Below are positions 23,399 to 42,067 of a stretch of DNA of 64,000 nt, piece after piece. The notes beneath the pieces are model-generated. The model was not told the DNA's origin and did no database searches. It saw nothing but the letters and a program-made list of their open reading frames with translations. Both the position numbers and the translations under genes were made by a program. The stretch's first letter is position 1. Each line of letters starts with the position of its first letter. Origin of the DNA: Rhodoferax sp. WC2427. Lineage in GTDB: Bacteria > Pseudomonadota > Gammaproteobacteria > Burkholderiales > Burkholderiaceae_C. The stretch lies in NCBI RefSeq assembly GCF_040822085.1, contig NZ_CP162006.1, forward strand, positions 3,162,001 through 3,226,000. The letters run 5' to 3'.

Positions 23399-23737
23399 AT
23401 GTCCCTTCCATTTCTGAAAGTGCTGTCGCAATACGATGGTGATACCTACATCAACAACCCGATAGAAGTCGGCTGGCTGGTCACGCTCAAACAGCAGGGG
23501 CTGGTAGAAGCTGACATCGGCCCGGCAGCCCTCACGCTCTACCCCAGCCGCCCCCCGATGTACGCAATCGTTCGCGGCCTCACGCCCAAGGGCTACGCGG
23601 CACTGGGCATGCAGCCCCGGCGGCGCTATCCCTTCTGGAGCACCCTGTTTGGCTTTCAGCGCCGGAAGTTTCCCAGGCTGACATTCCGCAGCCAAGAGGC
23701 CCAGGCTACGCTGGGCTGGTGGGGTTGGCTGGCGTAG
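23399..23737 (+). CDS. Hypothetical protein, about 112 residues
   Basis: Not recognised. MSLPFLKVLSQYDGDTYINN is followed by VGWLVTLKQQGLVEADIG and a PSRPPMYAIVRGLTPKGYAA segment, which could be a small winged-helix-like fold, then a basic stretch (RRRYPFWSTLFGFQRRKF). The end overlaps the 3' end of the convergent AraC gene by about 32 bp. The ATG at 23399 is the first within a sensible N-terminus. Real-gene status is likely but not certain. Confidence 0.5.
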   Translation: MSLPFLKVLSQYDGDTYINNPIEVGWLVTLKQQGLVEADIGPAALTLYPSRPPMYAIVRGLTPKGYAALGMQPRRRYPFWSTLFGFQRRKFPRLTFRSQEAQATLGWWGWLA

Positions 23738-24656
23738 CCGGTACCGGCCCTGTACCCTCGGGCACCAGCATGGATTCCAGCGCCTTCAACCGAAACGCCC
23801 GCGGGCTCAGGCCGGTGTGCTTGCGAAAAAAGCGCCCAAAGTAGGTCTCGTCGGCAAAGCCCAGGCTGTCGGCCAGCTGCTGGATGCTGTTGCTGGTGTA
23901 GACCAGGTCGCGCTGGGCCTCGTGCACCAGCCGGGCGTTGATCACATCCAGGCTGGACATGCCCAGCACCTCGCGGCACAGGCGTGAGAGCTGGCCCGGC
24001 GTGATGCCCAGCTGCTCGGCATACGCGGTGATGGGCAGGTGCTGCTTGAAGCGCTCGTCCACCATGGCGCGAAATTTCTCGATCTGCTGGGTTTTGCGCG
24101 GGTTGCCCAGCGCCTGCGCGGCCTGCTGCACCTGGGCCAGCCGCGCTACCTGCACGCACACCGCGGCCACCAGCGCCATGCCCGCATTCACCTGTCCGGC
24201 CGAGAGCAGATGCGCTTCGCGCTCGATCGACAAAAACAGCGGCATCAACAATTCCGCATGGCCGCTGCTACCGTCCAGGGTGATGATGGCGGGCTTGCGG
24301 ATGGTGGGCAGCAGCCCCGGCATGGCCACCGCCGCCAGCGACTCCAGCGGCCGCTGCGCCGCCGTCACCACCGGCCCGTCCATGTCGTCCGAGAAGCTGA
24401 AAGCATGCACGGTTTGTGCGGGAATCAGCAGCAGGCAGGGCGCTCTGACGGCAAACTTACCATGGTCGATCTGCACCTCGGCCGTACCCTGCAACAGGTA
24501 CAAAATCTGCAGAAACGCATCGTGTTTGTGGGGCCGGATCTCCCAGTTATAGGGGCGGGAGCGTTGTGGAATCCACTCAAAATCGAACGAGCTTTGCCAG
24601 CCCGGCGCGGCCTGGTCGCCGTACAGCGCGTAGTTCGGGATAACCCTGGTTGCCAC
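23706..24656 (-). CDS. AraC-family regulator, PobR/HpaA-like
   Basis: Protein of about 316 residues. The N-terminus (IPNYALYGDQ, then RSRPYNWEIRPHKHDAFLQI, LYLLQGTAEVQID) matches regulators of 4-hydroxybenzoate and hydroxyphenylacetate use. The C-terminus is an AraC DNA-binding domain (YAEQLGITPGQLSRLCREVL, LADSLGFADETYFGRFFRKH, GLSPRAFR). It is divergent from the SDR-FAD-NIPSNAP operon at 24777-27641, which it probably activates in response to an aromatic or alicyclic acid. That effector class is inferred from the family. Confidence 0.88.
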   Translation of the reverse strand: MATRVIPNYALYGDQAAPGWQSSFDFEWIPQRSRPYNWEIRPHKHDAFLQILYLLQGTAEVQIDHGKFAVRAPCLLLIPAQTVHAFSFSDDMDGPVVTAAQRPLESLAAVAMPGLLPTIRKPAIITLDGSSGHAELLMPLFLSIEREAHLLSAGQVNAGMALVAAVCVQVARLAQVQQAAQALGNPRKTQQIEKFRAMVDERFKQHLPITAYAEQLGITPGQLSRLCREVLGMSSLDVINARLVHEAQRDLVYTSNSIQQLADSLGFADETYFGRFFRKHTGLSPRAFRLKALESMLVPEGTGPVPATPANPTSPA

Positions 24657-24776
24657 ATCGATCCCCTGGGTACGTGTTCAAAGATGCACGAACTGTCTGG
24701 GTTTTCGCGTGAATTGTCAAACCGGTATTTGCCCGGCATTTGAACAATAGGGTCTTCAAATAACAAGGAGACCCGC

Positions 24777-25589
24777 ATGCCCGACACCCCCCGCCATTGG
24801 CTGCAACTCGACGGCCAGGTCTGCGCCGTCACCGGCGCGGCCAGCGGCATTGGCGCCGCCATCGCCCGCAGCCTGGCCCAGGCCGGTGCCCGTGTAGCCC
24901 TGCTCGACCGCGACCTGGCGGGCTGCGAACACATCGCCAGCGAGCTCACCGCCCAGGGCGCATCGGCGCTGGCCGTGGCCTGTGACGTGGCCTCTGAAGC
25001 CAGCGTGCAGGCCGCCGCCCAGCAGGTGCAGGCCGCCTGGGGCCCGGCCTACGCCCTCATCAACAACGCTGGCATGCTGCGTGCCGGGGGCCTGGCCGAG
25101 GTCAGCCTGGACGACTGGAACGCGGTGCTGGCCGTCAACCTCACCGGCTACCTGCTGTGCGCCCGCGCTTTTGGCGCGCAGATGCGCCAGGCCGGGCGCG
25201 GCAGCCTGGTGCACGTGGCCTCGGTCTCGGGCCTGACCCCGCAAACCCACAGCGGGGCCTACAGCGCCAGCAAGGCCGGGGTGCTGCTGCTGTCGCGCCA
25301 GCTGGCGGTGGAATGGGGGCCGCAGGGTGTGCGCAGCAATGCGGTGTGCCCCGGGATGGTTCGCACCGCGCTATCGGCCAAGTTTTACGAAGAACCCGGC
25401 TTTGAGGCCAAGCGCGCCGCCGTCACTGCCAGCCGCCGCGTCGGCGAGCCGCAGGACATTGCCGATGTGGCCCTGTTCCTGGCCAGCCCCCGCGCCGCCT
25501 ACGTCAACGCCGCCGAGATCGCAGTGGACGGCGGCATGACCTCCATGCTGATGGACATGGTGCCCCGCCCCGGTTTCAACGCTACCTGA
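24777..25589 (+). CDS. SDR-family oxidoreductase 1
   Basis: Classical short-chain dehydrogenase of about 270 residues: cofactor motif TGAASGIG at 19-26, NNAG in ALINNAGMLRAGG, a catalytic Ser in VASVSGLTPQTHSG and YSASK with Tyr near 162. It ends with an IAVDGGMTSMLMDMVPRPG tail. AACAAGGAGACC precedes the ATG. It is the first gene of an operon with the FAD dehydrogenase (11 bp downstream) and NIPSNAP gene. A likely role is oxidation of a ring alcohol to the ketone used by the flavoprotein. Confidence 0.9.
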   Translation: MPDTPRHWLQLDGQVCAVTGAASGIGAAIARSLAQAGARVALLDRDLAGCEHIASELTAQGASALAVACDVASEASVQAAAQQVQAAWGPAYALINNAGMLRAGGLAEVSLDDWNAVLAVNLTGYLLCARAFGAQMRQAGRGSLVHVASVSGLTPQTHSGAYSASKAGVLLLSRQLAVEWGPQGVRSNAVCPGMVRTALSAKFYEEPGFEAKRAAVTASRRVGEPQDIADVALFLASPRAAYVNAAEIAVDGGMTSMLMDMVPRPGFNAT

Positions 25590-25599: not shown

Positions 25600-27306
25600 A
25601 TGAACCCCAAAATGGAATACGACCTCGTCGTCGTCGGCTCCGGCGCAGCCGGCCTGGCCACCGCCATCACCGCCCGCAAGCGCGGCCTGGATGTGGTGGT
25701 GCTGGAGAAAGAACCCGTCTTCGGCGGCACCACCGCGCTGTCGGGTGGCGTGCTGTGGATCCCGCTGGGCCCGCATGGCCGCAAGCAAAACCCGGCCGAC
25801 ACCCTGGACGCCGTGCGCACCTACATGCAGCAGGAAACCGGCAAGTTCTATGACGCCGCAGCGGTCGAGGCCTTTTTGGCCCAGGGCCCGAAGATGGTGG
25901 AGTTCTTCGAGCGCGAAACCGCCGCCCAGTTCATCCCTACCATGTACCCCGACTACCACCCCGACGCGCCCGGCGGCGTGGACCTGGGTCGCTCCATCCT
26001 GGCCGCGCCCTACGACATCCGCGGCCTGGGCAAGGACATGGCGCGCCTGAAGCCGCCGCTGAAAACCATCACTTTCATCGGCATGATGTTCAACTCGTCC
26101 AACGCCGACCTGAAGCACTTCTTCCAGGCCACCAAGTCGCTGACCTCGTTCGTCTACGTGGCCAAACGCCTTGTCACGCACCTGAAAGAGCTGGCGCAGT
26201 ACGGGCGCGGCATCCAGGTCACCAGCGGCAACGCGCTGGCAGCCCGCCTGGCCCAGTCGGCGCTGGACCTGGGCATCCCCATCCTGACCAGCACCCCGGT
26301 GCGCGAAGTCACCCTGTTCGACGGCCGCGCCACCGGTGTGCTGGCCGACGGCCCCGACGGCCCCTGCCGCATCACCGCCCGCCAAGGCGTGGTGCTGGCC
26401 TGCGGCGGCTTTCCGCAAGACATCCAGCGCATCGCCAAGGCCTACCCGCACCTGCAACGCGGCGGCGAACACCTGTCGCCCACGCCCCTGGGCAATACCG
26501 GCGACGGCGTGGCCATGGCCGAAAAACTGGGTGCCACGGTGGACATCCGCTTCGAGGACAGTGCCGCCTGGATGCCGGTCTCGCGCGTGCCCTACCGCGA
26601 CGGCACCTTTGGCGTGTTCCCGCACCTGCTGGACCGCTACAAGCCCGGCATCATCGGCGTGCTGCGCAACGGCCAGCGATTCACCAACGAATCCAACTCG
26701 TACCACGACGTGGGCGCGGCCCTGGTGCGCGCCTGCGCGGGCCAGCGGGACACCGCCATGTGGCTCATCTGCGACAAGCCCACCATCGCCAAGTACGGCC
26801 TGGGCTACGCCAAGCCCGCGCCCATACCGCTGGGCGGCCACCTGCGCAGCGGCTACCTGGTCAAGGGCAACACCCTGGCCGAGCTGGCGGCCAACGCCGG
26901 TATCGACCCCGCCGGACTGGAGCAGACCGTGCGCCACTACAACAGCGGCGCGGTGCGCGGCGAAGACCCGGCCTTCCACCGCGGCAGCACCAGCTTCAAC
27001 CGCTACCTGGCCGACCCCGACCACCAACCCAACCCCTGCGTGGCCCCGGTGCAGACCGGCCCGTTTTACGCGCTCAAGGTGGTGATGGGCGACCTGGGCA
27101 CCTTCGACGGTATCCAGACCAGCGTGGTGGGCGAGGTGCTCAAGCGCGACGGCACGGCGATTGCCGGCCTGTACGCCGTGGGCAACGACCGCGCCAGCGT
27201 GATGGGCGGCAAGTACCCCGGCGCAGGCATCACCCACGGGCCCAACATGACGTTTGGCTTCATCACCGGCAACCACATCGCCGACCTGGCGGGAGCCGTC
27301 CAATGA
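25600..27306 (+). CDS. KstD-like FAD-dependent dehydrogenase 1
   Basis: Flavoprotein of about 568 residues of the 3-ketosteroid delta-1-dehydrogenase / fumarate-reductase-like family. GSGAAGLATAITARKRGLDV, then VVLEKE and FGGTTALSGGVLWIP form the FAD site. LACGGFPQDIQRI and GLYAVGNDRASVMGGKYPGA, then GITHGPNMTFGFITG close it. The family inserts a C=C next to a ketone in six-membered rings (steroids, 4-oxocyclohexanecarboxylate). Two paralogues lie at 30491-32188 and 33938-35653. The end overlaps the NIPSNAP start by 4 bp. The substrate is unknown; a steroid is unlikely since no other steroid genes adjoin. Confidence 0.88.
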   Translation: MNPKMEYDLVVVGSGAAGLATAITARKRGLDVVVLEKEPVFGGTTALSGGVLWIPLGPHGRKQNPADTLDAVRTYMQQETGKFYDAAAVEAFLAQGPKMVEFFERETAAQFIPTMYPDYHPDAPGGVDLGRSILAAPYDIRGLGKDMARLKPPLKTITFIGMMFNSSNADLKHFFQATKSLTSFVYVAKRLVTHLKELAQYGRGIQVTSGNALAARLAQSALDLGIPILTSTPVREVTLFDGRATGVLADGPDGPCRITARQGVVLACGGFPQDIQRIAKAYPHLQRGGEHLSPTPLGNTGDGVAMAEKLGATVDIRFEDSAAWMPVSRVPYRDGTFGVFPHLLDRYKPGIIGVLRNGQRFTNESNSYHDVGAALVRACAGQRDTAMWLICDKPTIAKYGLGYAKPAPIPLGGHLRSGYLVKGNTLAELAANAGIDPAGLEQTVRHYNSGAVRGEDPAFHRGSTSFNRYLADPDHQPNPCVAPVQTGPFYALKVVMGDLGTFDGIQTSVVGEVLKRDGTAIAGLYAVGNDRASVMGGKYPGAGITHGPNMTFGFITGNHIADLAGAVQ

Positions 27307-27641
27307 CGACCGCCAAGCCGCTGATCGACCACCGCACCTACACCATCGCGCTGCGCAAGATGCCGGAGTTTCTGGAGGTGTTCAACCGCCTGGCCATGCC
27401 CATCCTGATGGAGACCCTGGGCCACCCGGTGGGCTTCTACACCAGCCTGGTGGGGCCGCAAAACCAGTTTGTGCACCTCTGGGCCTACGACGACCTGGCC
27501 GACTACGAGCGCCGCTGCTTCGCCCGCGACACCCACCCCCACTTCGGGGCCTACCTGGCGGCCTCGGGGCACTTGATCACCGCACAGGAGACGCGGCTGG
27601 TGAAGGCGGTGCCGATGGCCGTTTTTTCTGGCGCTATTTGA
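27303..27641 (+). CDS. NIPSNAP-family protein, single domain
   Basis: Dimeric ferredoxin-fold protein of about 112 residues: IDHRTYTIALRKMPEFLEVF, then GHPVGFYTSLVGPQNQFVHL, WAYDDLADYERR. It overlaps the FAD dehydrogenase stop (ATGA). NIPSNAP domains recur in catabolic clusters beside flavin enzymes and may act as small isomerase- or decarboxylase-like partners; the role is not established. A second, double-domain version lies at 29792-30418. Confidence 0.88.
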   Translation: MTTAKPLIDHRTYTIALRKMPEFLEVFNRLAMPILMETLGHPVGFYTSLVGPQNQFVHLWAYDDLADYERRCFARDTHPHFGAYLAASGHLITAQETRLVKAVPMAVFSGAI

Positions 27642-27702
27642 TTTATAGCTGCTCACGCTGATGGAATGGACGCAGGACGGTCAATCGGCTTATAAATCCG
27701 CG
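27638..27702. repeat. Dispersed hairpin repeat, copy 8 (reverse orientation)
   Basis: TTATAGCTGCTCACGCTGAT, then GGAATGGACGCAGGACGG and TTATAAATCC. It overlaps the NIPSNAP stop. The rest of the 27642-27914 gap is unusually AT-rich (to about 27850) and holds no gene I can see. Confidence 0.7.
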
Positions 27703-27914
27703 TAAAAAAAAGCCAATACCGACCCAATCTGCCCAGGGCCGAATACCCAATTCCATTTGCGCCATCTAGATACAAACCTTAATAGACTTTAGGTGAAACT
27801 AAAGTTACTGTTAGTTACTAATTCAGGTAGCCAACAGCCGATCCACAAAAGCGACCGCGATGTGATGCGATTTACGGAGTAAGCACCCAAACAAGAAATA
27901 ATTGGAGAGCAAAA

Positions 27915-28973
27915 TTGTCGTATGAATCGCGCCCCACGGACAGCATCGTCAACAACTCTTGGGCTTACAGCCTGATCAACAGTATTGCCTTTCACCCGTC
28001 GGAAAATTTATTTTGCGCGGCATTTTCATCGGTCAGCCAGTTGATTAACTTCAAGGTCGACCGTTTCGGGCAAGCCCGCGTCAGCCAGGTCATCAAAAAT
28101 CCCGAAGCGCTTCTGGACGGGCCACAGCATGTGGTTTTCTCGCCGGATGGGCAGAAAATCATTGCGGTCAATTGGAGCAGTGAAACCTTCACCATTTACC
28201 AGCGCGAAGCCGACCAGCGGTATGCCACCGTGCCCATCGCCTGCATTCCGTTTCCCACGCCGTTGCAGGGCTTCAAACCCCATGGCATGGACGTTTCACC
28301 GTCTGGCAAACTGCTGGCGGTGGCCTTTGGTTGGACATCCACCCACCCCAAAGCCATCGGCCTTTTCAGGTTTGACAGTGCAGGCCCATCGATGCAGTTG
28401 CTCGATTGGATCCCGGATGATCGCTTGCCCGGCGTACCCAAAGGCATCGCCTTTTCTCCAGACGAGAGCAGTCTGCTGGTGACCTACGCCGACCTGAATA
28501 GCATCTGCATTTACGCCATAGACCGTGTCACGGGCCAGCTCAACCAGGCGCCCACACAAACCTTCGAAGGCGAAAGCACCCGGTTGTTCCGCCCGGAGGA
28601 CATCAAGGTGGCGCGCGACGGCCACAGCATTACCGTGTCGAACAGCAACGCCGACTGCGTCAGCTCGTATGCTTTTGACGCCACCCACAACCGCATCCTG
28701 CAACAGACGCCGACGCAGGAGCTGGCAAATCCCGATGCCCACCTGCGGTTTCCGCACGGCATTGCGTTTTCGCCGAATGGCGCGCTGCTGGTGGTCAGCC
28801 AATTTGGCCCGCTGCCGGTCACCAGCAACGGCGACATCATTTTTGGCAAAGAAACGCCCCGCAACCAGGCCAAGATCAATATCTACCGGCACCGGCAATC
28901 GCACCCGGCCCTGCAAGGTTCCGACTGGCGCCGGTCGTGGTCTTCGCTGATGCGCCTGGTGGGTCCGCGCTAA
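27915..28973 (+). CDS. Beta-propeller (lactonase / YncE-like) protein
   Basis: Protein of about 352 residues with repeating blade motifs: IAFHPSENLF, VVFSPDGQKIIAVNW, MDVSPSGKLLAVAFGW, IAFSPDESSLLVTYAD, IKVARDGHSITVSNSN and IAFSPNGALLVVSQFG. This is the six- or seven-bladed YVTN/6-phosphogluconolactonase-like fold. The start is a TTG at 27915 behind GGAGAGC, giving MSYESRPTDSIVNN. No signal peptide is seen. Base composition around its 5' end is lower in GC than the flanks. It converges on the TIM-barrel gene with a 4 bp overlap. Hydrolysis of a lactone from the FAD/SDR steps is possible, but the fold is also used for binding only. Confidence 0.78.
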   Translation: MSYESRPTDSIVNNSWAYSLINSIAFHPSENLFCAAFSSVSQLINFKVDRFGQARVSQVIKNPEALLDGPQHVVFSPDGQKIIAVNWSSETFTIYQREADQRYATVPIACIPFPTPLQGFKPHGMDVSPSGKLLAVAFGWTSTHPKAIGLFRFDSAGPSMQLLDWIPDDRLPGVPKGIAFSPDESSLLVTYADLNSICIYAIDRVTGQLNQAPTQTFEGESTRLFRPEDIKVARDGHSITVSNSNADCVSSYAFDATHNRILQQTPTQELANPDAHLRFPHGIAFSPNGALLVVSQFGPLPVTSNGDIIFGKETPRNQAKINIYRHRQSHPALQGSDWRRSWSSLMRLVGPR

Positions 28974-29782
28974 TTTACCGCCTCCAGCAACCGGCGCGAC
29001 GCCGCCAGCGCCTGGCGCGCCCACTCCACATCGCCCACCTGGGCGGCCCGTACCTGGTGTGGCACTTCCACGCTGACGGGCACGTCGGCGGGCAGCGCGG
29101 CAAAGATGGCGGCGGGGTCAATTCCACCCTCGCCCGGCAGCAGGCGCTCGCAGCGGGCGGTGTGGATCATTTGCTCTACCGTGAAATTTTTGCCTGCCGG
29201 GGCGTCGCAAATCTGCGCGTAGTGCAGCAGGCCGGGCGGCAAGGCGCGCAGGTCGTCCAGCGTGGTGTGGGAGCGGGCCACGTGCAGGGCATCGACCAGG
29301 ATGCCCGCATTGGCCGGGCTGCCCGCGGCCCGCACGGTGCGCAGGGCGGCCTGGGCATCGGGCACCGCCGTCCAGGGCATGAACTCCAGATCGGCCGTCA
29401 AGCCGTAGGGCTGCAGCAACGCGCACAGCCGGGCGTAGTTGTCGGCCAGGCGCGCCAGGTCGGTATCGTCCCCGGCCACTAGCACGGCACGGGCCCGCAG
29501 CGCAGCGGCGGCTTCGAACATGGGCAGGTAGGCCTGCGGGTCAAACGCGGCATCGATGCGGACGATCTCGATGTCGAACACGCCCACCCCGGTGTCGCGC
29601 TGCGCCGCCAGGGTTTCACGCAGGATGGCGGCATCGCCCAGCAAGGGCTGGTACGGCGCGCCGGGTGCATTGGGGCGCAGGCGCAGGCCCACATGGCCGT
29701 AGCCCAGTTGGGCGGCGGCGGCCAGCATCTGCGGCGGGGTGAGGTTGGCGGCAGTGAGGTAGGCGAGGGAGTAGCTGCGCAT
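28970..29782 (-). CDS. Xylose-isomerase-like TIM barrel (sugar isomerase / dehydratase family)
   Basis: Protein of about 270 residues of the AP-endonuclease-2 / xylose isomerase fold. Candidate metal residues fall where expected: E133 in DLEFMPW, D164 and H167 in LVDALHVARS, Q190-D193 in QICDAP and E239 in VSVEVP, with LPGEGGID before the last strand. Relatives include inosose dehydratase IolE and 3-dehydroshikimate dehydratase. With the AroE-like and KstD-like genes beside it, ring dehydration leading to an aromatic product is attractive but unproven. It is the last gene of the iclR-FAD-NIPSNAP-TIM operon, 9 bp after the NIPSNAP gene. Confidence 0.82.
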   Translation of the reverse strand: MRSYSLAYLTAANLTPPQMLAAAAQLGYGHVGLRLRPNAPGAPYQPLLGDAAILRETLAAQRDTGVGVFDIEIVRIDAAFDPQAYLPMFEAAAALRARAVLVAGDDTDLARLADNYARLCALLQPYGLTADLEFMPWTAVPDAQAALRTVRAAGSPANAGILVDALHVARSHTTLDDLRALPPGLLHYAQICDAPAGKNFTVEQMIHTARCERLLPGEGGIDPAAIFAALPADVPVSVEVPHQVRAAQVGDVEWARQALAASRRLLEAVN

Positions 29783-29791
29783 GGCCGTTCC

Positions 29792-30418
29792 TTATTTCAA
29801 GGGCGATACCGCGGTGGGTAGGGCGATGGTGGAGAACATGTTGGTGGTCAGGTGCGCAGGCCCGCCCTTGGGGGGCCAGATGCCCTGGGCCACCGCGTCG
29901 GCGCGGGCCTTGCTGCGCGCGTCCAGCGTGGGGTAGGCCCAGATGTTGGTGAAGCGCAGCGGCCCGTCCAGCGCCACCATGGCCACCACGCAAGGCGACA
30001 GGGCTTCGCGCGGTGGCACATACTGTTCCCACAGGTCGATGGTGGCCTGCACGCCGCCCGGCTTGATGCCGTAGGTGCGGATCTCGTACACCGGGCCGGT
30101 GATGCCCGATTCGGCCGAGGGGCGCACCGGTTTCATCCACGGAAAGCCTTTGTAGCTGTGCACTTCCAGGCTCTGGAAGATGCTGGCGCAGCCAAACGCG
30201 TCGGCGCTTTGCTGCGTGCGGCCACGCTCTTTTTGCAGCGCGGCCAGGTCGGCAAAGCCGCGCAAGACAACCATCTGGTTGAGCTGGCCGATGTCGGTGA
30301 ACCAGCAGCCCAGCAGTTCGCCGCTGGCGTCCTCCGCGCTGGCAAAAGCCTGCACGTTGGTGGCGGCCTGGCCTGCGGTGCCGAAAGGCAGGGTCATGGT
30401 GGCGAGTTCGTAGTACAT
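29792..30418 (-). CDS. NIPSNAP-family protein, tandem domains
   Basis: About 208 residues made of two NIPSNAP domains. The first (1-100: MYYELATMTLPFGTAGQAAT, GCWFTDIGQLNQMVVLRGFA) is followed by a second (about 108-205: GPVYEIRTYGIKPGGVQATI, RFTNIWAYPTLDARSKAR). The FTDIGQLNQMV and FTNIWAYPTL strands mark the same position in each. It follows FAD dehydrogenase 2 by about 72 bp containing a repeat, on the same strand, and precedes the TIM barrel. The role is unknown, as for the single-domain copy. Confidence 0.87.
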   Translation of the reverse strand: MYYELATMTLPFGTAGQAATNVQAFASAEDASGELLGCWFTDIGQLNQMVVLRGFADLAALQKERGRTQQSADAFGCASIFQSLEVHSYKGFPWMKPVRPSAESGITGPVYEIRTYGIKPGGVQATIDLWEQYVPPREALSPCVVAMVALDGPLRFTNIWAYPTLDARSKARADAVAQGIWPPKGGPAHLTTNMFSTIALPTAVSPLK

Positions 30419-30430
30419 GGTGAAAGTCCT

Positions 30431-30497
30431 TGGTTGCTATGGAATAAAGAGCTGCTTACGCTGATGGAATAAGCGCTGGAGGCCTATTTTTTATAAA
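30431..30497. repeat. Dispersed hairpin repeat, copy 9 (reverse), supplying a stop codon
   Basis: AGCTGCTTACGCTGATGGAA, then TAAGCGCTGGAGGCCTATTT and TTATAAA. The TAA stop of FAD dehydrogenase 2 (30491-30493) and its last codons lie in the T/A-rich end of this copy. Confidence 0.7.
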
Positions 30498-33054: not shown

Positions 33055-33075
33055 GAATTTAATTCAATACTTGAA
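33055..33075. promoter_or_regulatory. Overlapping palindromes in the iclR-aroE-like promoter
   Basis: GAATTTAATTC (33055-33065) and TTCAATACTTGAA (33063-33075) are perfect inverted repeats sharing three bases, in an AT-rich gap between divergent genes. Binding by the IclR protein is the natural guess. Confidence 0.45.
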
Positions 33076-33141
33076 TACTATTCCACTTTTGACTATGATT
33101 CCGACATTCCAACCCAACTTTCACGTGAAGGAGACTTTTCC

Positions 33142-33937: not shown

Positions 33938-35653
33938 ATGCAGGTCCTTTCCTCGTTAAGCGCCCTGCCCGAAGCCTCCGCCTACGACCTGGTGGTCGTC
34001 GGCGCGGGCGGCGCGGGCATGGCCGCCGCGCTCTTCGCGGCCCTCGAAGGCCAGCAGGTGCTGCTGGTGGAACGCACCGGCCACGTGGGCGGCACGACCG
34101 CCTGGTCGGGCGGCACCACCTGGATTCCGGGCACCCGGCACTCCGCCAGCGTCAACCCCACCGACACCCTGGCCGATGCGAAACGCTACCTGGACAACGC
34201 CGTGGGCGACCGCAGCCCGGCAGCGTTACGCCAGACCTTTCTGGACCATGGCGCGCAGGCGGTGGACGTGCTGGAGAACCGCACCGAGCTGCACTACCGC
34301 GCCTACCCCAAGCACCCCGACTACATCTCCGATCTGGGTGGCTCCACCCTGAACGGCCGGGCGCTGGAGCCCCTGCCGTTTGATGGCCGCCTGCTGGGCC
34401 CGCTGTTCCCGCTGGTGCGCCCGCCCATCCCCGAATTCACCGTGCTCGGCGGCATGATGGTGGACCGCACCGACATCAACCATTTGCTCGCTCTCAGCAA
34501 ATCCTTGCGCTCGTTCCGGCACGCCTGCAAGCTGCTGACCCGCCACGCCACCGACCGCCTGCACCACCCGCGTGGCACCCGGCTGGTGATGGGCAATGCG
34601 CTGGTGGGGCGGCTGCTGCATTCCTTGTCAAAACACGCCAACGTGACCCTGGCCCTGCACACCTCGGTGCAGCGCATCCAGCGCGGCGCCGACGGCATCC
34701 AGTCCGTCACGCTGGTGCAAGAGGGGCAGCGCCGCACCGTGGCCGTACGCAAGGGCCTGGTGCTGGCCAGCGGCGGCTTCAACCGGCATCCGCAGCTGCG
34801 CCAGGACCTGCTGCCCGGCATCGCCGCCGACTGGTGCCCGGCCGCCCCCGGCCACACCGGCGAGGCCCACGGCCTGGCCCAGCACGCCGGTGCGCACTAC
34901 GGCCCCGGCGGCCTGAGCCCGGCGTTTTGGGCACCGGTATCGAAACGCCAGCGGCCCGACGGCAGCACCGCCGTTTTCCCGCACTTTATGATGGACCGCG
35001 CCAAGCCCGGCATGCTGGCGGTGAACCAGGCGGGCAACCGCTTTGTGAACGAAAGCACCTCTTACCACCTGTTCGCGCTGGCCCTGCAGCAGCAGCCCGG
35101 CATGGCAGGCTACCTGGTGTGCGACGCCAAGGCCCTGCGCAAGTACGGCATCGGTATGGTGCGCCCCGGTGGCAAGGGGCTGGAGCCCTTTTTGGCCGAC
35201 GGCTACCTGGTGCAGGCCGACACGCTCGACGCAATGGCGCAGAAGCTGGGCATGCCCGCACCGCACCTGCAGGCCAGCGTGGCCCAGATCAACGCCTACG
35301 CCGAAACCGGTGTGGACCCGGACTTCCAGCGCGGCAGCACCGCCTATTCGCAAAACATGGGCGACCCCAGCGCGGGCGGCAAAAACCCGAATCTCGGCCC
35401 GCTGCGCGAAGGCCCGTTCTATGCGGTACGCCTGTACCCCGGCGACATCGGCGCATCCACCGGTTTTGCCACCGACGGCGATGCCCGCGTGCTGGGCGAA
35501 GACAACACCCCCATCCCCGGCCTGTACGCCGTGGGCAACGACATGCACAGCATCATGGGCGGGGTCTATACCGCGCCCGGCATCACGCTGGGGCCGGGGG
35601 TGGTGTTCGCTTATTTGGCGGCGCGCCACGCATCGGCGCGGCGGCCTGACTAG
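33938..35653 (+). CDS. KstD-like FAD-dependent dehydrogenase 3
   Basis: Flavoprotein of about 571 residues. The FAD site is VVGAGGAGMAAALFAALEGQ, then VLLVERTGHVGGTTAWSGG. LASGGFNRHPQLRQDLLPGI and GLYAVGNDMHSIMGGVYTAP, then GITLGPGVVFAYLAA complete the family signature. It is tightly coupled to the AroE-like gene. The alcohol-to-ketone step of the dehydrogenase followed by ring desaturation is a consistent inferred sequence. It shares less central sequence with copies 1 and 2 than they share with each other by eye, so distinct substrates are likely. Confidence 0.88.
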   Translation: MQVLSSLSALPEASAYDLVVVGAGGAGMAAALFAALEGQQVLLVERTGHVGGTTAWSGGTTWIPGTRHSASVNPTDTLADAKRYLDNAVGDRSPAALRQTFLDHGAQAVDVLENRTELHYRAYPKHPDYISDLGGSTLNGRALEPLPFDGRLLGPLFPLVRPPIPEFTVLGGMMVDRTDINHLLALSKSLRSFRHACKLLTRHATDRLHHPRGTRLVMGNALVGRLLHSLSKHANVTLALHTSVQRIQRGADGIQSVTLVQEGQRRTVAVRKGLVLASGGFNRHPQLRQDLLPGIAADWCPAAPGHTGEAHGLAQHAGAHYGPGGLSPAFWAPVSKRQRPDGSTAVFPHFMMDRAKPGMLAVNQAGNRFVNESTSYHLFALALQQQPGMAGYLVCDAKALRKYGIGMVRPGGKGLEPFLADGYLVQADTLDAMAQKLGMPAPHLQASVAQINAYAETGVDPDFQRGSTAYSQNMGDPSAGGKNPNLGPLREGPFYAVRLYPGDIGASTGFATDGDARVLGEDNTPIPGLYAVGNDMHSIMGGVYTAPGITLGPGVVFAYLAARHASARRPD

Positions 35654-35800: not shown

Positions 35801-35896
35801 ATGCAAAAACCAATTACTACAATTTTCATAGCTTCTTGCGCTTATTCCATAAGCGCTAGCAGCCTATTTTCCTTAAATCCTGCCGACCTGGCCTGA
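35801..35896 (+). CDS. 31-residue leader ORF built over a hairpin repeat
   Basis: ATG at 35801 follows GAGGAGACAAAC, the same style of ribosome site as the genes at 36713 and 40056. The frame encodes MQKPITTIFIASCAYSISAS, then SLFSLNPADLA and stops at 35896, 3 bp before the ATG of the SDR. The SDR has no ribosome site of its own. Copy 10 of the hairpin repeat covers most of the coding part. It may be a translated coupling leader or the 5' remnant of an earlier gene. Confidence 0.45.
   Translation: MQKPITTIFIASCAYSISASSLFSLNPADLA
35822..35878. repeat. Dispersed hairpin repeat, copy 10
   Basis: ATAGCTTCTTGCGCTTATTC, then CATAAGCGCTAGCAGCC with the full CGCTTAT/ATAAGCG stem. It lies inside the leader ORF. 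Confidence 0.75.
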
Positions 35897-35899
35897 AGC

Positions 35900-36682
35900 A
35901 TGGCCACCCTCCCCATGGTCGCGGTGGTCACCGGTGCCGCCGACGGCATCGGCTGGGCCACGGCGCAAAAACTGGCCGCCAGCGGCTACCGAATTGCACT
36001 GCTGGACCTGCGCGCTGAGGCGGCCCAATCCCGCGCCGCCGAGCTGGGCCCCGGGCACCTGGGCCTGGGCTGCGACGTAACCCAGCCCGACAGCGTGGAC
36101 GCGGCCATTGCGGCGGCCCGCACGCTGGGCCGCATCGCGGTGCTGGTCAACAACGCGGGCATTGGCGACCAGACCGGTCCCACGGTGGCGCAAGACGTGG
36201 CCGCCTTTGACCGGGTACTGGACGTGCACCTGCGCGGCACCTTCCTGGTCAGCCAGGCGGTGGCCAAAGCCATGCTGCACGACACCGGCCACCGCGCCAT
36301 CGTCAACCTGGGCTCCATCGCCAGCAGCACCGGCCTGCCCGCCCGCAACGCCTACAGCGCAGCCAAGGCCGGGGTGATCGGCATGACCCGCGCCATGGCC
36401 AGCGAGTGGGCCCGCGATGGCATCCGCGTGAACGCCGTGGCCCCGGGCTACGTGCGCACCGCGCTGGTGGCCGAGCTGGGCCGCAAAGGTGCCATCGATC
36501 TGCCGGGCATTGCCCACCGCACGCCGCTGGGCCGCATGGCCGAGCCGCACGAGATCGCCGAGGCGATTGCCTTTCTGGCATCGCCCCAGGCCAGCTACAT
36601 CACCGGCGTGGTACTGCCGGTGGACGGCGGCTGGACGGCCTTTGGTGCGCCGGAGTCGGCCCTGGCGACGCTGGCAGCCTGA
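35900..36682 (+). CDS. SDR-family oxidoreductase 2
   Basis: Classical SDR of about 260 residues: TGAADGIGWATAQKLA near 13-28, LVNNAGIGDQTGP, NLGSIASSTGLPA with the catalytic Ser, and YSAAKAGVIG. The C-terminus reads ITGVVLPVDGGW. The start at 35900 has no clear ribosome site, and translation probably depends on the leader ORF ending 3 bp before it. It precedes the ABC importer genes on the same strand, tying the enzyme to uptake. Confidence 0.9.
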   Translation: MATLPMVAVVTGAADGIGWATAQKLAASGYRIALLDLRAEAAQSRAAELGPGHLGLGCDVTQPDSVDAAIAAARTLGRIAVLVNNAGIGDQTGPTVAQDVAAFDRVLDVHLRGTFLVSQAVAKAMLHDTGHRAIVNLGSIASSTGLPARNAYSAAKAGVIGMTRAMASEWARDGIRVNAVAPGYVRTALVAELGRKGAIDLPGIAHRTPLGRMAEPHEIAEAIAFLASPQASYITGVVLPVDGGWTAFGAPESALATLAA

Positions 36683-36712: not shown

Positions 36713-37564
36713 ATGTTGGCTATCAACCTTTTCAACGGCCTGGTCTACGGCGCATTGCTGATCGTGATGTGCTCGGGGCTGGCGCTGATCTATGGGCTGC
36801 GGCGGGTGGTGAACTTTGCCCACGGCTCGCTCTACATGCTGGGGGCCTACCTGGGCTATTCCATCGCCAGCCACAGCAACTTCTGGGTGGCGCTGGTGGC
36901 GGCCCCGGCGGTGATGGCGCTGCTGGGCGTGCTGCTGGACCGCTACGGCTTTCGCCTGCTGCAAGACCGCGACCCGCTCAGCGTGGTGCTGGTGACCTTT
37001 GGCCTGCTGCTGATCATCGAAGACTTTGTGCAGAGCGTGTGGGGCAAGAGCAACCTGTCGGTGGCCGCCCCCGAGGCGCTGAACACCTCGGTCGACCTGC
37101 TGGGCACGCCGGTGCCCGCCTACCGGCTGGCGGTGATTGCCGTGGGCGCGCTGGTGGCGCTGGGCCTGAGCCTGTGGCTGCGCTATTCCAAGGTGGGCCT
37201 GTTTGTGCGGGCCGCCAGCACCGACCCCACCACCACCGCCATGCAGGGAGTGAACACCGACGTGCTCAGCGCCGGGGTGGTCGGCCTGGGCACCGCACTG
37301 GCCGGGCTGGCCGGGGTGGTGGCCGCGCCGTTTCTGTCGCTGTCGCCGTCCATGAGCAGTGACGTGATCATCGATTCATTCGTGGTGGTGGTGGTCGGCG
37401 GCCTGGGCTCGCTGGTGGGGGCGTTTGTGGCCGCCATGGTGCTAGGCATGGTGCAGGCCCTGGGTGCCGTGTACCTGCCCGACCTGTCGGCGGTGCTGCC
37501 CTTCGTGATCATGGTCGCCGTGCTGGTCTGGAAGCCCGCGGGCTTTGCCGGCAGCCGGACCTGA
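36713..37564 (+). CDS. HAAT-family ABC transporter permease, LivH type
   Basis: Inner membrane permease of about 283 residues with eight or so hydrophobic segments (LFNGLVYGALLIVMCSGLAL, IYGL; LVVAVVGGLGSLVGAFVAAM type end). YGLRRVVNFAHGSLYMLGAY is the LivH hallmark. GGAGGAGACACAAAA precedes the ATG. It is the first of a permease-permease-ATPase-ATPase-binding-protein set at 36713-41237. The family moves branched-chain amino acids, urea, amides and also aromatic and alicyclic acids, so the substrate is read from the cluster only. Confidence 0.92.
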   Translation: MLAINLFNGLVYGALLIVMCSGLALIYGLRRVVNFAHGSLYMLGAYLGYSIASHSNFWVALVAAPAVMALLGVLLDRYGFRLLQDRDPLSVVLVTFGLLLIIEDFVQSVWGKSNLSVAAPEALNTSVDLLGTPVPAYRLAVIAVGALVALGLSLWLRYSKVGLFVRAASTDPTTTAMQGVNTDVLSAGVVGLGTALAGLAGVVAAPFLSLSPSMSSDVIIDSFVVVVVGGLGSLVGAFVAAMVLGMVQALGAVYLPDLSAVLPFVIMVAVLVWKPAGFAGSRT

Positions 37565-37578
37565 AAGAGGAAATCAAC

Positions 37579-38559
37579 ATGTCTATCCAACGTATCACTC
37601 TATCCACCGCAGGCGCATTGGCAGTGGGGGCCGTGGTGGCGGCCACCGTCACCTCGGGCACGGTCTTGTCGCTGCTCACGCAGGCCATCATTTACGCGGT
37701 GTTTGCCAGCGGCGTGGGCCTGCTGCTGCGGCAAAACGGCATGGTCAGCTTTGGCCACGCGCTGTTCTTTGGCGCAGCGGGCTACGGCGTGGGCCTGCTG
37801 CTGCAAATGCAGGCCATGCCTGCCGAGGCGGCCATGCTCGTCACCCTGCTGGTCCTGACCGCCGTGGCCTTTGTAATGGGGCTGGTGATTGTGCGGGTGC
37901 CCGGTGTGGCCTTTGGCATGCTGACGCTGGCGGTGGGGCAGATGTTCTACCTCACGGCCTCGCGCTCCCGCGGCCTGACCGGCGGTGCCGACGGCATGAA
38001 CATCGAATGGCCCGCCACGCTGTTTGGCCTGCCGATGTCGCAGCTGCTGAAGTCTTCGCACATGTTTTTGCTGTGCTGGACGGTGCTGGTGCTGGTACTG
38101 CTGGCCCTGGCCCTGCTGCTGCGCAGCCGCTTTGGCAGCATCACCGAGGCGGTGCGCGACAACGAGGAGCGGGCCCGTTTCATCGGCATCCGCACCCTGC
38201 TGCCGCGGGCGGCCATCTACGCCCTGTCGGCCCTGGTGACCGGCGTGGCCGGTTTGCTGTCGGCGCTGAACACCGGCTTTGTGTCGCCGGAAAACCTGCA
38301 CTGGAGCCTGTCGGGCGTGGCGCTGATGATGGTGGTGGTGGGTGGCTACAAGGCCCTGTGGGGCCCGGCGCTGGGTGCGGTTGTGTACTTCCTGGCCAAG
38401 GACATCCTGGGCGACTACGCCAACCACTGGATGGCCATCTTCGGCGTGGCGCTGATCACCGTGATCGTGTTCTCGCCCACCGGCATCGCCGGGGCCCTGG
38501 GCCGCCTGGTCCGGGCCAAAACACCTACCCCCGCCCTGCGCACCGCGCCCGGGCACTGA
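37579..38559 (+). CDS. HAAT-family ABC transporter permease, LivM type
   Basis: Second permease of about 326 residues. LLRQNGMVSFGHALFFGAAG is the LivM signature, FGSITEAVRDNEERARFIGI is the EAA-like loop that meets the ATPase, and several hydrophobic spans surround them. It begins 14 bp after the LivH-type gene and ends 11 bp before the ATPase gene. A long open frame overlapping it in another phase (from 37545) is only upstream read-through of the ATPase frame. Confidence 0.92.
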   Translation: MSIQRITLSTAGALAVGAVVAATVTSGTVLSLLTQAIIYAVFASGVGLLLRQNGMVSFGHALFFGAAGYGVGLLLQMQAMPAEAAMLVTLLVLTAVAFVMGLVIVRVPGVAFGMLTLAVGQMFYLTASRSRGLTGGADGMNIEWPATLFGLPMSQLLKSSHMFLLCWTVLVLVLLALALLLRSRFGSITEAVRDNEERARFIGIRTLLPRAAIYALSALVTGVAGLLSALNTGFVSPENLHWSLSGVALMMVVVGGYKALWGPALGAVVYFLAKDILGDYANHWMAIFGVALITVIVFSPTGIAGALGRLVRAKTPTPALRTAPGH

Positions 38560-38570
38560 GAGGAACCCCC

Positions 38571-39290
38571 ATGAGCAACTATGTTTTGGAAGCCAACGAC
38601 GTGGCCATCCACTATGGCGGCGTGAAGGCCGTGGACGGTGTCTCGCTGACGCTGGAGCGCGGCCAGATCCGCGGGCTGATCGGCCCCAACGGCGCGGGCA
38701 AGTCCACGGTGATCGATGCCATCACCGGCCGCACCCGCCTGACCCGTGGCACGGTGCACCTGGCCGGGCAGGACGTGACCGCCCTGGGCGCCACCCAGCG
38801 CCGCATGCGCGGGCTGTCGCGCAGCTTTCAGCGCACCAGCATCTTTGGCCAGATGGCAGTGCGCCAGCAGGTGGAGCTGGCCTCGCACAAGATGGGCGTG
38901 GCCGACTCCGGGGCCGATGCCGACGCGGTGCTGCAGGAGCTGGACCTGCTGCCGCTGGCCAACGCCACCGCCGAAGACCTGGGCTACGGCCAGCAGCGCC
39001 GCCTGGACCTGGCGCTGGCCCTGGTAGGCCGCCCGCAGGTGCTGTTGCTGGACGAACCCATGGCCGGGCTGTCGGTGCAGGAATCGCACGACCTGGCCAA
39101 GCACCTGAAGGCGCTGACCTCGCGCTGGGACGTGTCGGTGCTGCTGGTCGAACACGATATGGACGTGGTCTTCGGTATCTCCGATGTGGTCACGGTTTTT
39201 GAACTCGGCCGGGTGATCGCCAGTGGCGCACCGGCCAGCGTGCGCGCCGACCCGCGCGTGCGCGAAGCCTATTTGGGGAGCACAGCATGA
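38571..39290 (+). CDS. HAAT-family ABC transporter ATPase, LivG type
   Basis: ATPase of about 239 residues: Walker A GPNGAGKST, Q-loop in RSFQRTSIFG, a signature replaced by YGQQRRLDLALAL (LSGGQ form altered to YGQQR, as usual in LivG), Walker B VLLLDEPMAGL, and the switch His in LLVEHDMDVV. The ATG at 38571 follows GAGAGGAACCCCC. It overlaps the next ATPase start by 4 bp (ATGA). Confidence 0.93.
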   Translation: MSNYVLEANDVAIHYGGVKAVDGVSLTLERGQIRGLIGPNGAGKSTVIDAITGRTRLTRGTVHLAGQDVTALGATQRRMRGLSRSFQRTSIFGQMAVRQQVELASHKMGVADSGADADAVLQELDLLPLANATAEDLGYGQQRRLDLALALVGRPQVLLLDEPMAGLSVQESHDLAKHLKALTSRWDVSVLLVEHDMDVVFGISDVVTVFELGRVIASGAPASVRADPRVREAYLGSTA

Positions 39291-39991
39291 ATGCCCTGTT
39301 GAAACTCGACGCGGTGAACGCGTTCTACGGTTCCGCCCACATCCTGCACGGCCTGAGCCTGGCGGTGCACCCCGGCGAGCGGGTGGCGCTGATCGGCCGC
39401 AACGGCGTGGGCAAGACCACGGTGGTCAACACGGTGTTGGGCCTGGCCGCGCTGCGCGGCGGCAGCGTGCGCGTGGGCAGCAAGACCCTGCCGCGCCCGC
39501 GCCCCTACATGGCGGCCCAGCAAGGCGTGGTGGTGGTGCCGCAGGGGCGGCGCATCGTGGCCAACCTGACGGTGGAAGAAAACCTGCAGCTGGGTGCCGC
39601 CGTGGGCCGCAAGGGCCCGTGGAACGTGCCCGAGATCTACAAGCTCTTTCCCATCCTGCAGGAGCGCGCCCACACCCCGGGCACCGCCTTGTCGGGCGGC
39701 CAGCAGCAGATGCTGGCGGTGGGCCGGGCACTGATGGCCAACCCCGCGCTGATCCTGCTGGACGAGCCTACCGAGGGCCTGGCCCCGGTGATCGTGGACC
39801 AGCTGGCGGTAATTTTCAACCGGGTGGCCGACCAGGGCACGGCCCTGCTGCTGATCGAGCAAAACATGAGCCTGGTGGTGCGCGTGGCCGCACGCTACTG
39901 CGCCATGGCCAAGGGCGCGGTGGTGGCCGAAGGCCCAGTGGAGAACAGCAAGGCCTGCCTACAAGATCTCGAAGCCCACGTGATGGTTTAA
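39287..39991 (+). CDS. HAAT-family ABC transporter ATPase, LivF type
   Basis: ATPase of about 234 residues: Walker A GRNGVGKTT, signature LSGGQQQMLAVGRALMANPA, Walker B LILLDEPTEGLAP and IEQNMSLVV. Typical LivF order and length. It is coupled to the LivG-type gene by a 4 bp overlap and followed after 64 bp by the binding-protein gene. Confidence 0.93.
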   Translation: MNALLKLDAVNAFYGSAHILHGLSLAVHPGERVALIGRNGVGKTTVVNTVLGLAALRGGSVRVGSKTLPRPRPYMAAQQGVVVVPQGRRIVANLTVEENLQLGAAVGRKGPWNVPEIYKLFPILQERAHTPGTALSGGQQQMLAVGRALMANPALILLDEPTEGLAPVIVDQLAVIFNRVADQGTALLLIEQNMSLVVRVAARYCAMAKGAVVAEGPVENSKACLQDLEAHVMV

Positions 39992-40055
39992 GGCGCATTC
40001 CCTTTTTTATCGGCAACCGGGCCGCTTCCGGCAATTTGATTCAGGAGACAAAACC

Positions 40056-41237
40056 ATGTTCACAAAAAACCGCATCCTCGCCGCCCTGGCACTCACCGCC
40101 GCCCTGCCCCTGGCCGCCTTGGCCCAGGGCAAGGAGCCCGTCAAGATCGGCCTGGTGTCGTCCAAGTCGGGCGTGTTTGCCCAGCAGGGCGAAGAAGTCA
40201 TGCGCGCCGTGCAGTTCGCCATCGACGAGGCCAACGCCAAAGGCGGGGTGGATGGCCGCAAGGTCGAGGTGCAGACGGCCGACGACGAAGGCACGCCCGA
40301 CGCGGGCCGCCGCGTGGCCGAAAAACTGGCGCGCGACGGCTACAACCTGCTGATCGGGGCGATTCCCTCGTCCATCTCGCTGGCGCTGGCGCAGAATCTG
40401 GAGCGCTGGGACGCGGCCTACTTTGCCGTGGCCAGCAAGTCCGACAAGCTGACCGGCGACACCTGCCGCCCGCGCAGCTTCCGCACCAACCATTCCGACG
40501 CGATGGACATGGCCATGATCGGCCAGTGGGCCAAGGGCTTCAAGGAAAAGTCGTTTGCCGTGCTGGCCGCCGACTACGTCTGGGGCCGTGACTCGGGCGA
40601 ATCCTTCAAGAAAGCCGTGGAAGCCCAGGGCAAGACCGTGCCGCTGAGCCTGTACGTGCCGATGGGCACCAAGGACTTCTCGCCCTACATCGCCCAGCTC
40701 AAGGCTTCTAATGTGGAAGCCATCTGGGTGGCGGAAACCGGCCGCGACGCCATCGCGTTTGCCAAGCAGGCGCAGGAGTTCGGCCTGATCCCGGCGAAAA
40801 AGCTGATCGGCCACTCGCTGATCCTGAACTTCATGATCGAAGGCTCGGGCGAAGCGCTGAAGGACACCATCGGCACCATCCCCTACGCCGTGGACATCGA
40901 CACACCGCGCAACAAGGCTTTTGTGACCGCCTGGAAGGCCAAGTTCAACCGCCTGCCGTCCGACAACGAAGGCGGGGCCTACAACGGCACCCAGGTGATT
41001 TTTGAAGGCGTGAAGAAGGCCGGCAGCGTCAAGCCTGGCGATGTCAGCAAGGCCCTGCGCGGTGCCCAGATCGACTCCATCTACGGCGACGTGACCATGC
41101 GCGCGCAAGACAACCAGCTGGTGCTGCCCAACTACGTGGGCCGCGCCAAGGTGGCCGACGGTGTGCTGCGCGCGGTGATCGAGCAGCGCTTCGACCCGTC
41201 GCTGACGCCCGCACCCTCGCCCCTGTGCAAGATGTGA
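40056..41237 (+). CDS. ABC transporter substrate-binding protein (periplasmic, LivK-like)
   Basis: Periplasmic protein of about 393 residues. Residues 1-23 form a signal peptide (MFTKNRILAALALTAALPLA, ALA) with a cut before QGKEP. The mature part begins KIGLVSSKSGVFAQQGEEVM, RAVQFAIDEANAKGGVDGRK, the type-I fold of amino-acid/amide/aromatic-acid receptors, and has ADDEGTPDAGRRVAEKLARD and YVPMGTKDFSPYIAQLK. AGGAGACAAAACC precedes the ATG. The ligand is not deducible; cluster context favours a carboxylated ring compound. Confidence 0.9.
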   Translation: MFTKNRILAALALTAALPLAALAQGKEPVKIGLVSSKSGVFAQQGEEVMRAVQFAIDEANAKGGVDGRKVEVQTADDEGTPDAGRRVAEKLARDGYNLLIGAIPSSISLALAQNLERWDAAYFAVASKSDKLTGDTCRPRSFRTNHSDAMDMAMIGQWAKGFKEKSFAVLAADYVWGRDSGESFKKAVEAQGKTVPLSLYVPMGTKDFSPYIAQLKASNVEAIWVAETGRDAIAFAKQAQEFGLIPAKKLIGHSLILNFMIEGSGEALKDTIGTIPYAVDIDTPRNKAFVTAWKAKFNRLPSDNEGGAYNGTQVIFEGVKKAGSVKPGDVSKALRGAQIDSIYGDVTMRAQDNQLVLPNYVGRAKVADGVLRAVIEQRFDPSLTPAPSPLCKM

Positions 41238-42067
41238 TGGCAGCGGTGGCCCACTCCACCGCGGTGCACGCCCTGGTCACCGGTGCCACCGGTGGCATCG
41301 GCCAGGGCATCTGCTTCGCACTGCTGGCCCAGGCGCAGAAGGACGGCGTCCCCATCCACATCAGCGCGGCGGCCTCGCAACCCGGCGCACGGCTGGACGC
41401 GCTGGTGCAGGCCTTGCGCGATGCCGGGGCCAGCGCCTACGGCGTGGCAGGCGACATCACCGAGCCCGCGCAATGCGCCGACCTGGTGGCGCAGGCCCAG
41501 GCGGGCGGCGGCGACCTGACGGCCCTGGTGTGTAATGCCGGGGCCTCCGGCCCGGGCCGCCTGGCCGACCTGCCGGTGGCGCAGTGGGACCGCACCTTCC
41601 AGCTCAACACCCGCTCGGCCTGGCTGCTGGCCCAGGCGGCCTACCCGGCGCTGGCACGCACCCGCGGCAGCATCACCGCCATCGCGTCCATGTCAGGGCT
41701 GACACCACACCCCGGCTACGGCGCGTATTCGGCGGCCAAGGCTGCGCTGGTGATGCTGTGCCGCCAGCTGGCGCAGGAATGGGCGGTGGACGGCATCCGC
41801 GTCAACACGGTGTGCCCTGGCATGGTCCGCACGCCGCTGACCGAAGCCGTCTACCTGGACGCGGCCACGCTGCAGCAGCGCCAGGCCCTGGTGCCCCTGG
41901 GCCGCATCGGCCAGGCCGAGGATGTGGGCGCGGCGGTGGCGTTCTTCACCAGCGCGGCCGCCGCGTACGTCACCGGCCAGAACCTGCTGGTGGACGGCGG
42001 CATCTCGGACCACATGCTGGGCCTGATTCCGGGGCGGCCCGGCCAGCCGCCGGTGGGCAGCCGCTGA
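41237..42067 (+). CDS. SDR-family oxidoreductase 3
   Basis: SDR of about 276 residues: VTGATGGIGQGICFALL at the N-terminus, VCNAGASGPGRLA, ASMSGLTPHPGYGAYSAAKA and a VDGGISDHMLGLIPGRPG tail much like that of SDR 1 (VDGGMTSMLMDMVPRPG), suggesting related substrates. Its ATG overlaps the stop of the binding-protein gene (TGATG), so it belongs to the transporter operon and ends it. A GTG at 41225 is an alternative start. Confidence 0.9.
   Translation: MAAVAHSTAVHALVTGATGGIGQGICFALLAQAQKDGVPIHISAAASQPGARLDALVQALRDAGASAYGVAGDITEPAQCADLVAQAQAGGGDLTALVCNAGASGPGRLADLPVAQWDRTFQLNTRSAWLLAQAAYPALARTRGSITAIASMSGLTPHPGYGAYSAAKAALVMLCRQLAQEWAVDGIRVNTVCPGMVRTPLTEAVYLDAATLQQRQALVPLGRIGQAEDVGAAVAFFTSAAAAYVTGQNLLVDGGISDHMLGLIPGRPGQPPVGSR

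Follow-up and report, generated by a model that had tools for sequence, protein, structure and literature searches.

Cyclohexanecarboxylate is reportedly aromatised by the chc system of Sinomonas cyclohexanicum, as Yamamoto et al. are said to have described in 2021. In the Escherichia coli ydiB-aroD-ydiF-ydiO arrangement, an AroE-family gene presumably lies near genes for a CoA-transferase and an acyl-CoA dehydrogenase. According to the available parts of one account of the chc route, short-chain dehydrogenases/reductases (SDRs) oxidise the ring alcohol and KstD-like desaturases aromatise the ring ketone acid, with two desaturases acting consecutively (PMC9795900); the available parts of another describe quinate and shikimate catabolism through QuiA, QuiB and QuiC (PMC4213383). 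Here we analyse an 18-kb region of Rhodoferax sp. WC2427 (4.78 Mb genome, single contig), lying in a window of 64,000 nucleotides taken from contig NZ_CP162006.1. The region encodes three KstD-like flavoproteins (FAD1, FAD2 and FAD3), three SDRs, two NIPSNAP proteins, an AroE-like protein, a QuiC/IolI-like TIM barrel, AraC and IclR regulators and a HAAT importer; Pfam and NCBIfam profile searches recovered at their positions all the protein classes named in a preliminary description made from the DNA letters. Among open-licence PubMed Central papers, no title or abstract describing this gene set was found. Judged from its genes, the route encoded here probably resembles known aromatisation but employs a different, unstudied enzyme set.

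The region consists of two conserved modules, module I being nested inside module II. Module I comprises iclR-fad2-nips1-tim, divergent from aroE-fad3, while module II comprises araC divergent from sdr1-fad1-nips2-sdr2-HAAT-sdr3. To follow both among relatives, we used 80 of 115 confirmed TIM barrel loci (tim relatives 62–91% identical, the 91% relative being in a genome of the same genus, G039) and mapped the window proteins onto them with presence thresholds of 55–60% identity. Counts exclude loci cut by contig ends: a minimum of 5 kb upstream of tim leaves 61 loci, one of 3.5 kb downstream leaves 68 and one of 9 kb on each side leaves 45 (termed fully flanked); the related genomes behind them are not independent of each other. 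A search of other genomes for AroE-like, KstD-like, NIPSNAP and TIM barrel genes, suggested earlier, found the five core genes of module I (iclR, fad2, nips1, aroE and fad3) together with tim in 52/61 loci. One of the nine incomplete loci (L020) is short only of iclR, which is present at 47% identity, and three (L038, L042 and L051) lack all five genes. The remaining five (L022, L026, L046, L054 and L091) carry tim with an acyl-CoA dehydrogenase gene (acd) and a CoA-transferase gene (cat) and have neither fad2 nor fad3; an AroE-like gene is present in all of these except L022. The pattern suggests one ring-desaturation system standing in for the other.

Module II is less frequent: sdr1, fad1 and nips2 occur together in 14 of the 45 fully flanked loci. 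The importer, earlier taken as part of the region's system, is present and mostly accompanies module II (12 of these 14 loci; two loci outside the 14, L025 and L046, have it too), but other carriers adjoin module I elsewhere, and the type varies between relatives (HAAT, TTT, MFS and others). The HAAT proteins fall below the equivalog cut-offs for urea and branched-chain transport, at 187 bits for UrtB (cut-off 250), 118 for UrtA (493) and 203 for LivG (362). Seven nips2 stretches located apart from tim, or in its absence, were read. Three of them (L118, L119 and L123) carry araC, sdr1, fad1, nips2, sdr2 and HAAT as one unbroken run, L119 also having sdr3; a fourth (L122) has the same run without sdr2, and a fifth (L124) has araC, sdr1, fad1 and nips2 without HAAT. 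In all five, araC adjoins sdr1. Where nips2 and sdr2 share a locus, the entire module I lies between them in 10 of 13 cases, as in the window, the exceptions being L041 and L073, with no module I between, and L022, with only tim. Since module II stands alone elsewhere and module I lies between nips2 and sdr2, the 18 kb is best described as module I nested in module II. The earlier view of a single block thus holds for the co-occurrence of its genes and gives way to two nested modules, each with its own regulator. Two further observations concern tim. Two copies can share a locus, in tandem in L125 (9663–11280) and in opposite orientations in L073. In addition, tim and aroE are at most 12 kb apart in 16 of the 17 plasmid-comparison records common to the best 25 of 172 and the best 25 of 404. 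Cultured bacteria that carry the genes include Polaromonas jejuensis, Hydrogenophaga flava and Limnohabitans.

The gap between iclR and aroE contains a conserved site, TTCAATASTTGAATA, followed by a ATTCCACTTTT block. Of 28 such gaps, the window's own among them, all but those of L031, L060 and L066 match the 15-mer with up to three mismatches (25/28). Each of the top 9-mers is shared by 20 to 25 of these gaps, and by 0 to 3 once they are shuffled. Allowing up to one mismatch, the whole genome has a single copy of the 15-mer, at iclR/aroE. It overlaps both promoter-like matches in 27600–36000, one per strand, which is weak evidence as shuffled sequences average 1.0. We infer that IclR binds this predicted operator. 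Joint control of module II through the same site was considered and found unsupported, the sole genomic copy being that at iclR/aroE.

We propose, with confidence evenly divided for and against, that the two modules work together to break down hydroaromatic acids, plant acids with a saturated six-membered ring, by converting them to an aromatic acid on which the bacterium can feed. The HAAT importer would bring in a hydroxylated cyclohexane carboxylate, the module II SDRs would oxidise its ring alcohol and FAD1 would desaturate the ring beside the ketone. In module I, the AroE-like enzyme would oxidise a shikimate-like ring hydroxyl, FAD3 and FAD2 would put in ring double bonds, and the QuiC-like, metal-dependent TIM barrel would remove water. 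The product would be protocatechuate or a closely related compound, and candidate class III extradiol dioxygenases of the same genome may provide its sink. IclR would govern the two divergent arms of module I through a single operator, and the NIPSNAP proteins perhaps catalyse a tautomerisation or isomerisation. The direction and order of these steps are those that we presume. A saturated cyclohexane (poly)ol carboxylate fits best as the substrate, at about even odds. Dihydroshikimate serves as an example that balances atoms rather than as a finding: C7H12O5 less four hydrogens and one water, through one alcohol oxidation, one desaturation and one dehydration, equals protocatechuate, C7H6O4. 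The alicyclic-acid logic first suggested for the region fits the active-site residues, neighbourhoods and co-occurrence, with its substrate and aromatic product still conjectural.

The flavoproteins were compared at the catalytic positions of KstD, which we take to be Tyr119, Tyr318, Tyr487 and Gly491. FAD1 keeps all four in 15/15 sequences and FAD3 keeps them in 53/53 (the glycine in 52/53), while FAD2 matches at three. From these residues, FAD1–3 are likely ring-ketone desaturases. None reaches the cut-off of ChcC2 (547, 477 and 413 bits; cut-off 900) or ChcC1 (312, 320 and 299 bits; cut-off 1000). A variant of the chc route, in which SDRs would oxidise acids of the 4-hydroxy- or 4-oxocyclohexanecarboxylate type, two desaturations would lead to 4-hydroxybenzoate and PobA would hydroxylate it, whether through module II alone or through both modules, would accommodate the 547 bits of FAD1 on ChcC2, the 216 bits of sdr2 on ChcB2, a PobA in the same genome (663 bits; cut-off 538.7) and the two consecutive desaturases in the available parts of the published description (PMC9795900). 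We consider it unlikely, as every Chc model is below its cut-off and the described route has no need of the dehydratase, AroE-like enzyme and NIPSNAP proteins that form the conserved core. The genome also encodes a class III dioxygenase (571 bits on PRK13366; cut-off 317) and a gallate dioxygenase (498 bits; cut-off 412). These class III dioxygenases and PobA make a protocatechuate and a 4-hydroxybenzoate product both possible. Protocatechuate 3,4-cleavage was rejected as a sink: no pcaGH pair was found, and the two intradiol matches are 2.46 Mb apart and score best on catechol/chlorocatechol 1,2-dioxygenase models, below cut-offs.

The coupling of the two modules was examined in a sample of 150 genomes of the family, about one per genus (tim at E ≤ 1e-60, nips2 at E ≤ 1e-25). 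There, tim is present in 16/150 genomes and nips2 in 13/150, with 12 having both (Fisher p = 1.3e-13, kinship being handled only by the genus sampling); tallied by genus, the figures are 15/141 and 12/141. The two genes are close together in four genomes (G000, G039, G051 and G118). In G080 a single 2.6 Mb contig carries both, 584 kb apart, and in the two-contig genome G018 they are on different contigs. Six further pairs are also split between contigs, which fragmentation may partly explain. The modules could instead be unrelated pathways, neighbours by chance and retained in similar generalist bacteria, a reading that their separate regulators, the absence of the IclR site from module II and the loci in which each occurs without the other alongside would favour, as would one genome with nips2 and no tim at threshold (G122) and four with tim and no nips2. 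It is nevertheless quite unlikely: tim is found in 12 of the 13 nips2 genomes versus 4 of 137 others, pairs as distant as those of G080 and G018 included, with ancestry corrected only by sampling about one genome per genus. Such co-occurrence is not the behaviour of unrelated operons, although a common lifestyle could give rise to it as well. The possibility raised earlier, that the genes belong to independent operons that never co-occur, does not agree with the counts of 52/61 loci and 12/13 genomes.

The active sites of the encoded enzymes suit a hydroaromatic acid as substrate. The AroE-like protein retains the catalytic Lys65 and Asp102 in 61/61 sequences and scores 133 bits on the NCBIfam aroE model TIGR00507, under the cut-off of 200.2. 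In the TIM barrel, Glu133, Asp164 and Gln190 are conserved in 81/81 sequences and Glu239 in 80, with one gap; we take these four residues to be metal ligands. Alignment with QuiC1 shows the Glu, Asp, Gln and Glu ligands and a Q-x-x-D-A stretch in common. The window protein corresponds to the barrel domain only and scores 18.6 bits on the two-domain NCBIfam QuiC model (cut-off 1200).

Neighbouring genes in relatives extend this picture. Downstream of tim, acd and cat are present in 49/68 loci, and acd starts within about 400 bp of tim on the same strand in 54 of the 55 loci having it, which suggests a carboxylate able to become a CoA ester. The relatives' acd reaches 279 bits on the acryloyl-CoA reductase model and 239 bits on that for cyclohexane-1-carbonyl-CoA dehydrogenase, neither over its cut-off. 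A quiC or aroQ gene lies within 10 kb in 10/45 fully flanked loci, against an assumed baseline of 3%, and within about 8 kb of tim in records from Paracoccus alcaliphilus, Gemmobacter, Bradyrhizobium and Sagittula. On a Rhodococcus plasmid, an OYE/BaiCD-like flavoprotein gene adjoins a shikimate dehydrogenase gene and a PRK12839-type KstD relative adjoins tim. The plasmid stretch (L013:5481–12801) reads as an actinobacterial counterpart, with shikimate dehydrogenase, OYE/BaiCD-like flavoprotein, AKR, Gfo/Idh/MocA, KstD-like flavoprotein and TIM barrel.

Several observations weigh against the proposed degradation of hydroaromatic acids. Two of the separate nips2 stretches hold only fad1 and nips2 (L121) or nips2 alone (L120). 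FAD2 has lost the first KstD tyrosine, with Phe at that position in 66/66 sequences. The acd-cat pair is missing from the window; the best acd match in the genome is 37% identical and was set aside as a paralog, and cat was not searched genome-wide. The 3% baseline for quiC and aroQ is itself an assumption. A separate QuiC-like barrel and AroE-type gene are present at 1.92–1.93 Mb of the genome, leaving a second dehydratase unexplained unless the substrates differ. Ser14 and Tyr215, on the carboxylate side of the AroE-like site, are replaced by Val and Thr in 61/61 sequences, so the substrate could have no carboxylate at C1; Foldseek ranks IolI over QuiC1 for the TIM barrel; and behind the cluster of Rhizobium ACO-34A lie sugar-type ABC, kinase and aldolase genes. 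Cyclitol or sugar-like catabolism, with the AroE-like and IolI-like proteins acting on an inositol- or sugar-derived ring lacking a carboxylate, seems very unlikely all the same, the QuiC/AroQ neighbours, the acd and cat genes downstream of tim in relatives and the KstD-like desaturases being hard to fit. Degradation of steroid or terpenoid rings by true ketosteroid dehydrogenases is scarcely credible: although the best solved relative of FAD2 and FAD3 is the 3-oxosteroid dehydrogenase 7p18 (308 and 262 bits), the genome has no KshA_C match (one marker only) and the flavoproteins miss the KstD equivalog cut-offs, with 407, 402 and 386 bits on the 3-oxosteroid 1-dehydrogenase model PRK07843 (cut-off 788).

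Feature positions are collected in Table 1. We adopted starts at 32188 for fad2 and 33142 for aroE instead of the longest open reading frame (ORF) starts. The nips2 gene, located by hidden Markov model (HMM) search and reading of frames, overlaps the fad1 stop by 4 bases, and the predicted structure of nips1 is poor (mean pLDDT 54). All three NIPSNAP matches of an HMM search of the 4.78 Mb genome fall within nips1 and nips2, and of the five strongest FAD_binding_2 matches genome-wide, three lie in this region, so the NIPSNAP and FAD content here is beyond chance. The propeller, initially listed with the genes of the region, is genuine by Pfam but was rejected as a pathway member; because a match was found in just 1/80 related loci (L034, Rhodoferax sp. 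OV413), it probably lies outside the system.

Table 1 Features of the 18-kb region, in window coordinates
Feature	Position	Strand	Evidence
araC, AraC-family regulator, module II	23706..24656	-	HTH_18 77.7 bits; best among models on HpaA, 171 bits (cut-off 275)
sdr1, SDR dehydrogenase, module II	24777..25589	+	adh_short_C2 216 bits; ChcB2 180 bits (cut-off 350)
fad1, KstD-like flavoprotein, module II	25600..27306	+	FAD_binding_2 307 bits; ChcC2 547 (cut-off 900)
nips2, NIPSNAP protein, 112 aa, module II	27303..27641	+	NIPSNAP 73 bits
Lactonase-like propeller, probable bystander	27915..28973	+	Lactonase 46.7 bits (Pfam)
tim, QuiC/IolI-like TIM barrel, probable dehydratase, module I	28970..29782	-	
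nips1, two-domain NIPSNAP protein, module I	29792..30418	-	NIPSNAP 95 bits over two stretches
fad2, KstD-like flavoprotein, module I	30491..32188	-	PRK06134 868 bits (cut-off 747; longer ORF scored)
iclR, IclR regulator, module I	32191..33009	-	HTH_IclR and IclR_C
Putative operator region, conserved, iclR/aroE gap	33063..33099	none	15-mer conservation
aroE, putative AroE-like ring-alcohol dehydrogenase, module I	33142..33936	+	Closest solved chain 4k28, 156 bits
fad3, KstD-like flavoprotein, module I	33938..35653	+	PRK12843 877 bits (cut-off 758)
sdr2, SDR dehydrogenase, module II	35900..36682	+	adh_short_C2 220 bits; ChcB2 216 (cut-off 350)
HAAT importer (2 permeases, 2 ATPases, binding protein at 40056..41237), module II	36713..41237	+	BPD_transp_2 x2, ABC_tran x2, Peripla_BP_6 263 bits
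sdr3, SDR dehydrogenase, module II	41225..42067	+	adh_short_C2 191 bits

Upstream, positions 14500–23181 encode a Rieske-domain protein, a LacI regulator, a Gfo/Idh/MocA oxidoreductase, an AraC regulator and an FMN reductase, possibly a separate catabolic region. Downstream, a response-regulator/TPR protein and then the urease accessory protein UreD occupy 42887–45533, and the gap ahead of 42887 encodes a short peptide that presumably resembles a flagellar rod protein.

A broader reading, which we advance tentatively and with confidence well short of even, is that the locus represents a widespread, undescribed aerobic route aromatising saturated hydroaromatic acids (dihydroshikimate, 3,4-dihydroxycyclohexanecarboxylate and their kin), in which a constant AroE-like/TIM pair would work with interchangeable desaturases: KstD-like, acyl-CoA dehydrogenase after CoA transfer, or OYE-like in Rhodococcus. 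If so, many Burkholderiales and some Alphaproteobacteria would share a further means of degrading saturated cyclohexane carboxylates, one without a name in the libraries searched, and freshwater Burkholderiales (Limnohabitans, Rhodoferax and Polaromonas) might use carboxyl-rich alicyclic dissolved organic matter. It would also offer likely substrates for a group of AroE-like enzymes and QuiC-like barrels, a testable pathway setting for bacterial NIPSNAP proteins, and marker genes for tracing the consumption of alicyclic dissolved organic matter.

Among known systems, the Listeria TIM barrel Lmo2234 (2g0w) shares 23% identity with that of the window. The E. coli ydi locus parallels only the acd-cat part of relatives, which the window lacks; the relatives' acd scores 225 bits on PRK12341 (cut-off 537), which we take to be YdiO. 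Quinate and shikimate catabolism is closer, having in common an AroE-fold dehydrogenase, a QuiC-fold barrel with the same metal ligands and, in relatives, quiC/aroQ neighbours. It differs in that the TIM barrel is 29% identical to a QuiC over 144 aa, the AroE carboxylate residues are replaced, and the region has ring desaturases, expected only for saturated rings. No P450 hit was obtained among the scanned genes of the region, a genome-wide P450 search not having been made. To the chc route, as known from the available parts of PMC9795900 and from NCBIfam model names, the likeness lies in the predicted sequence of SDR alcohol oxidation followed by KstD-like ring desaturation. The proteins here fall short of the ChcB and ChcC cut-offs, and to this logic the region adds an AroE-like enzyme, a TIM barrel, NIPSNAP proteins, a second regulator and a HAAT importer.

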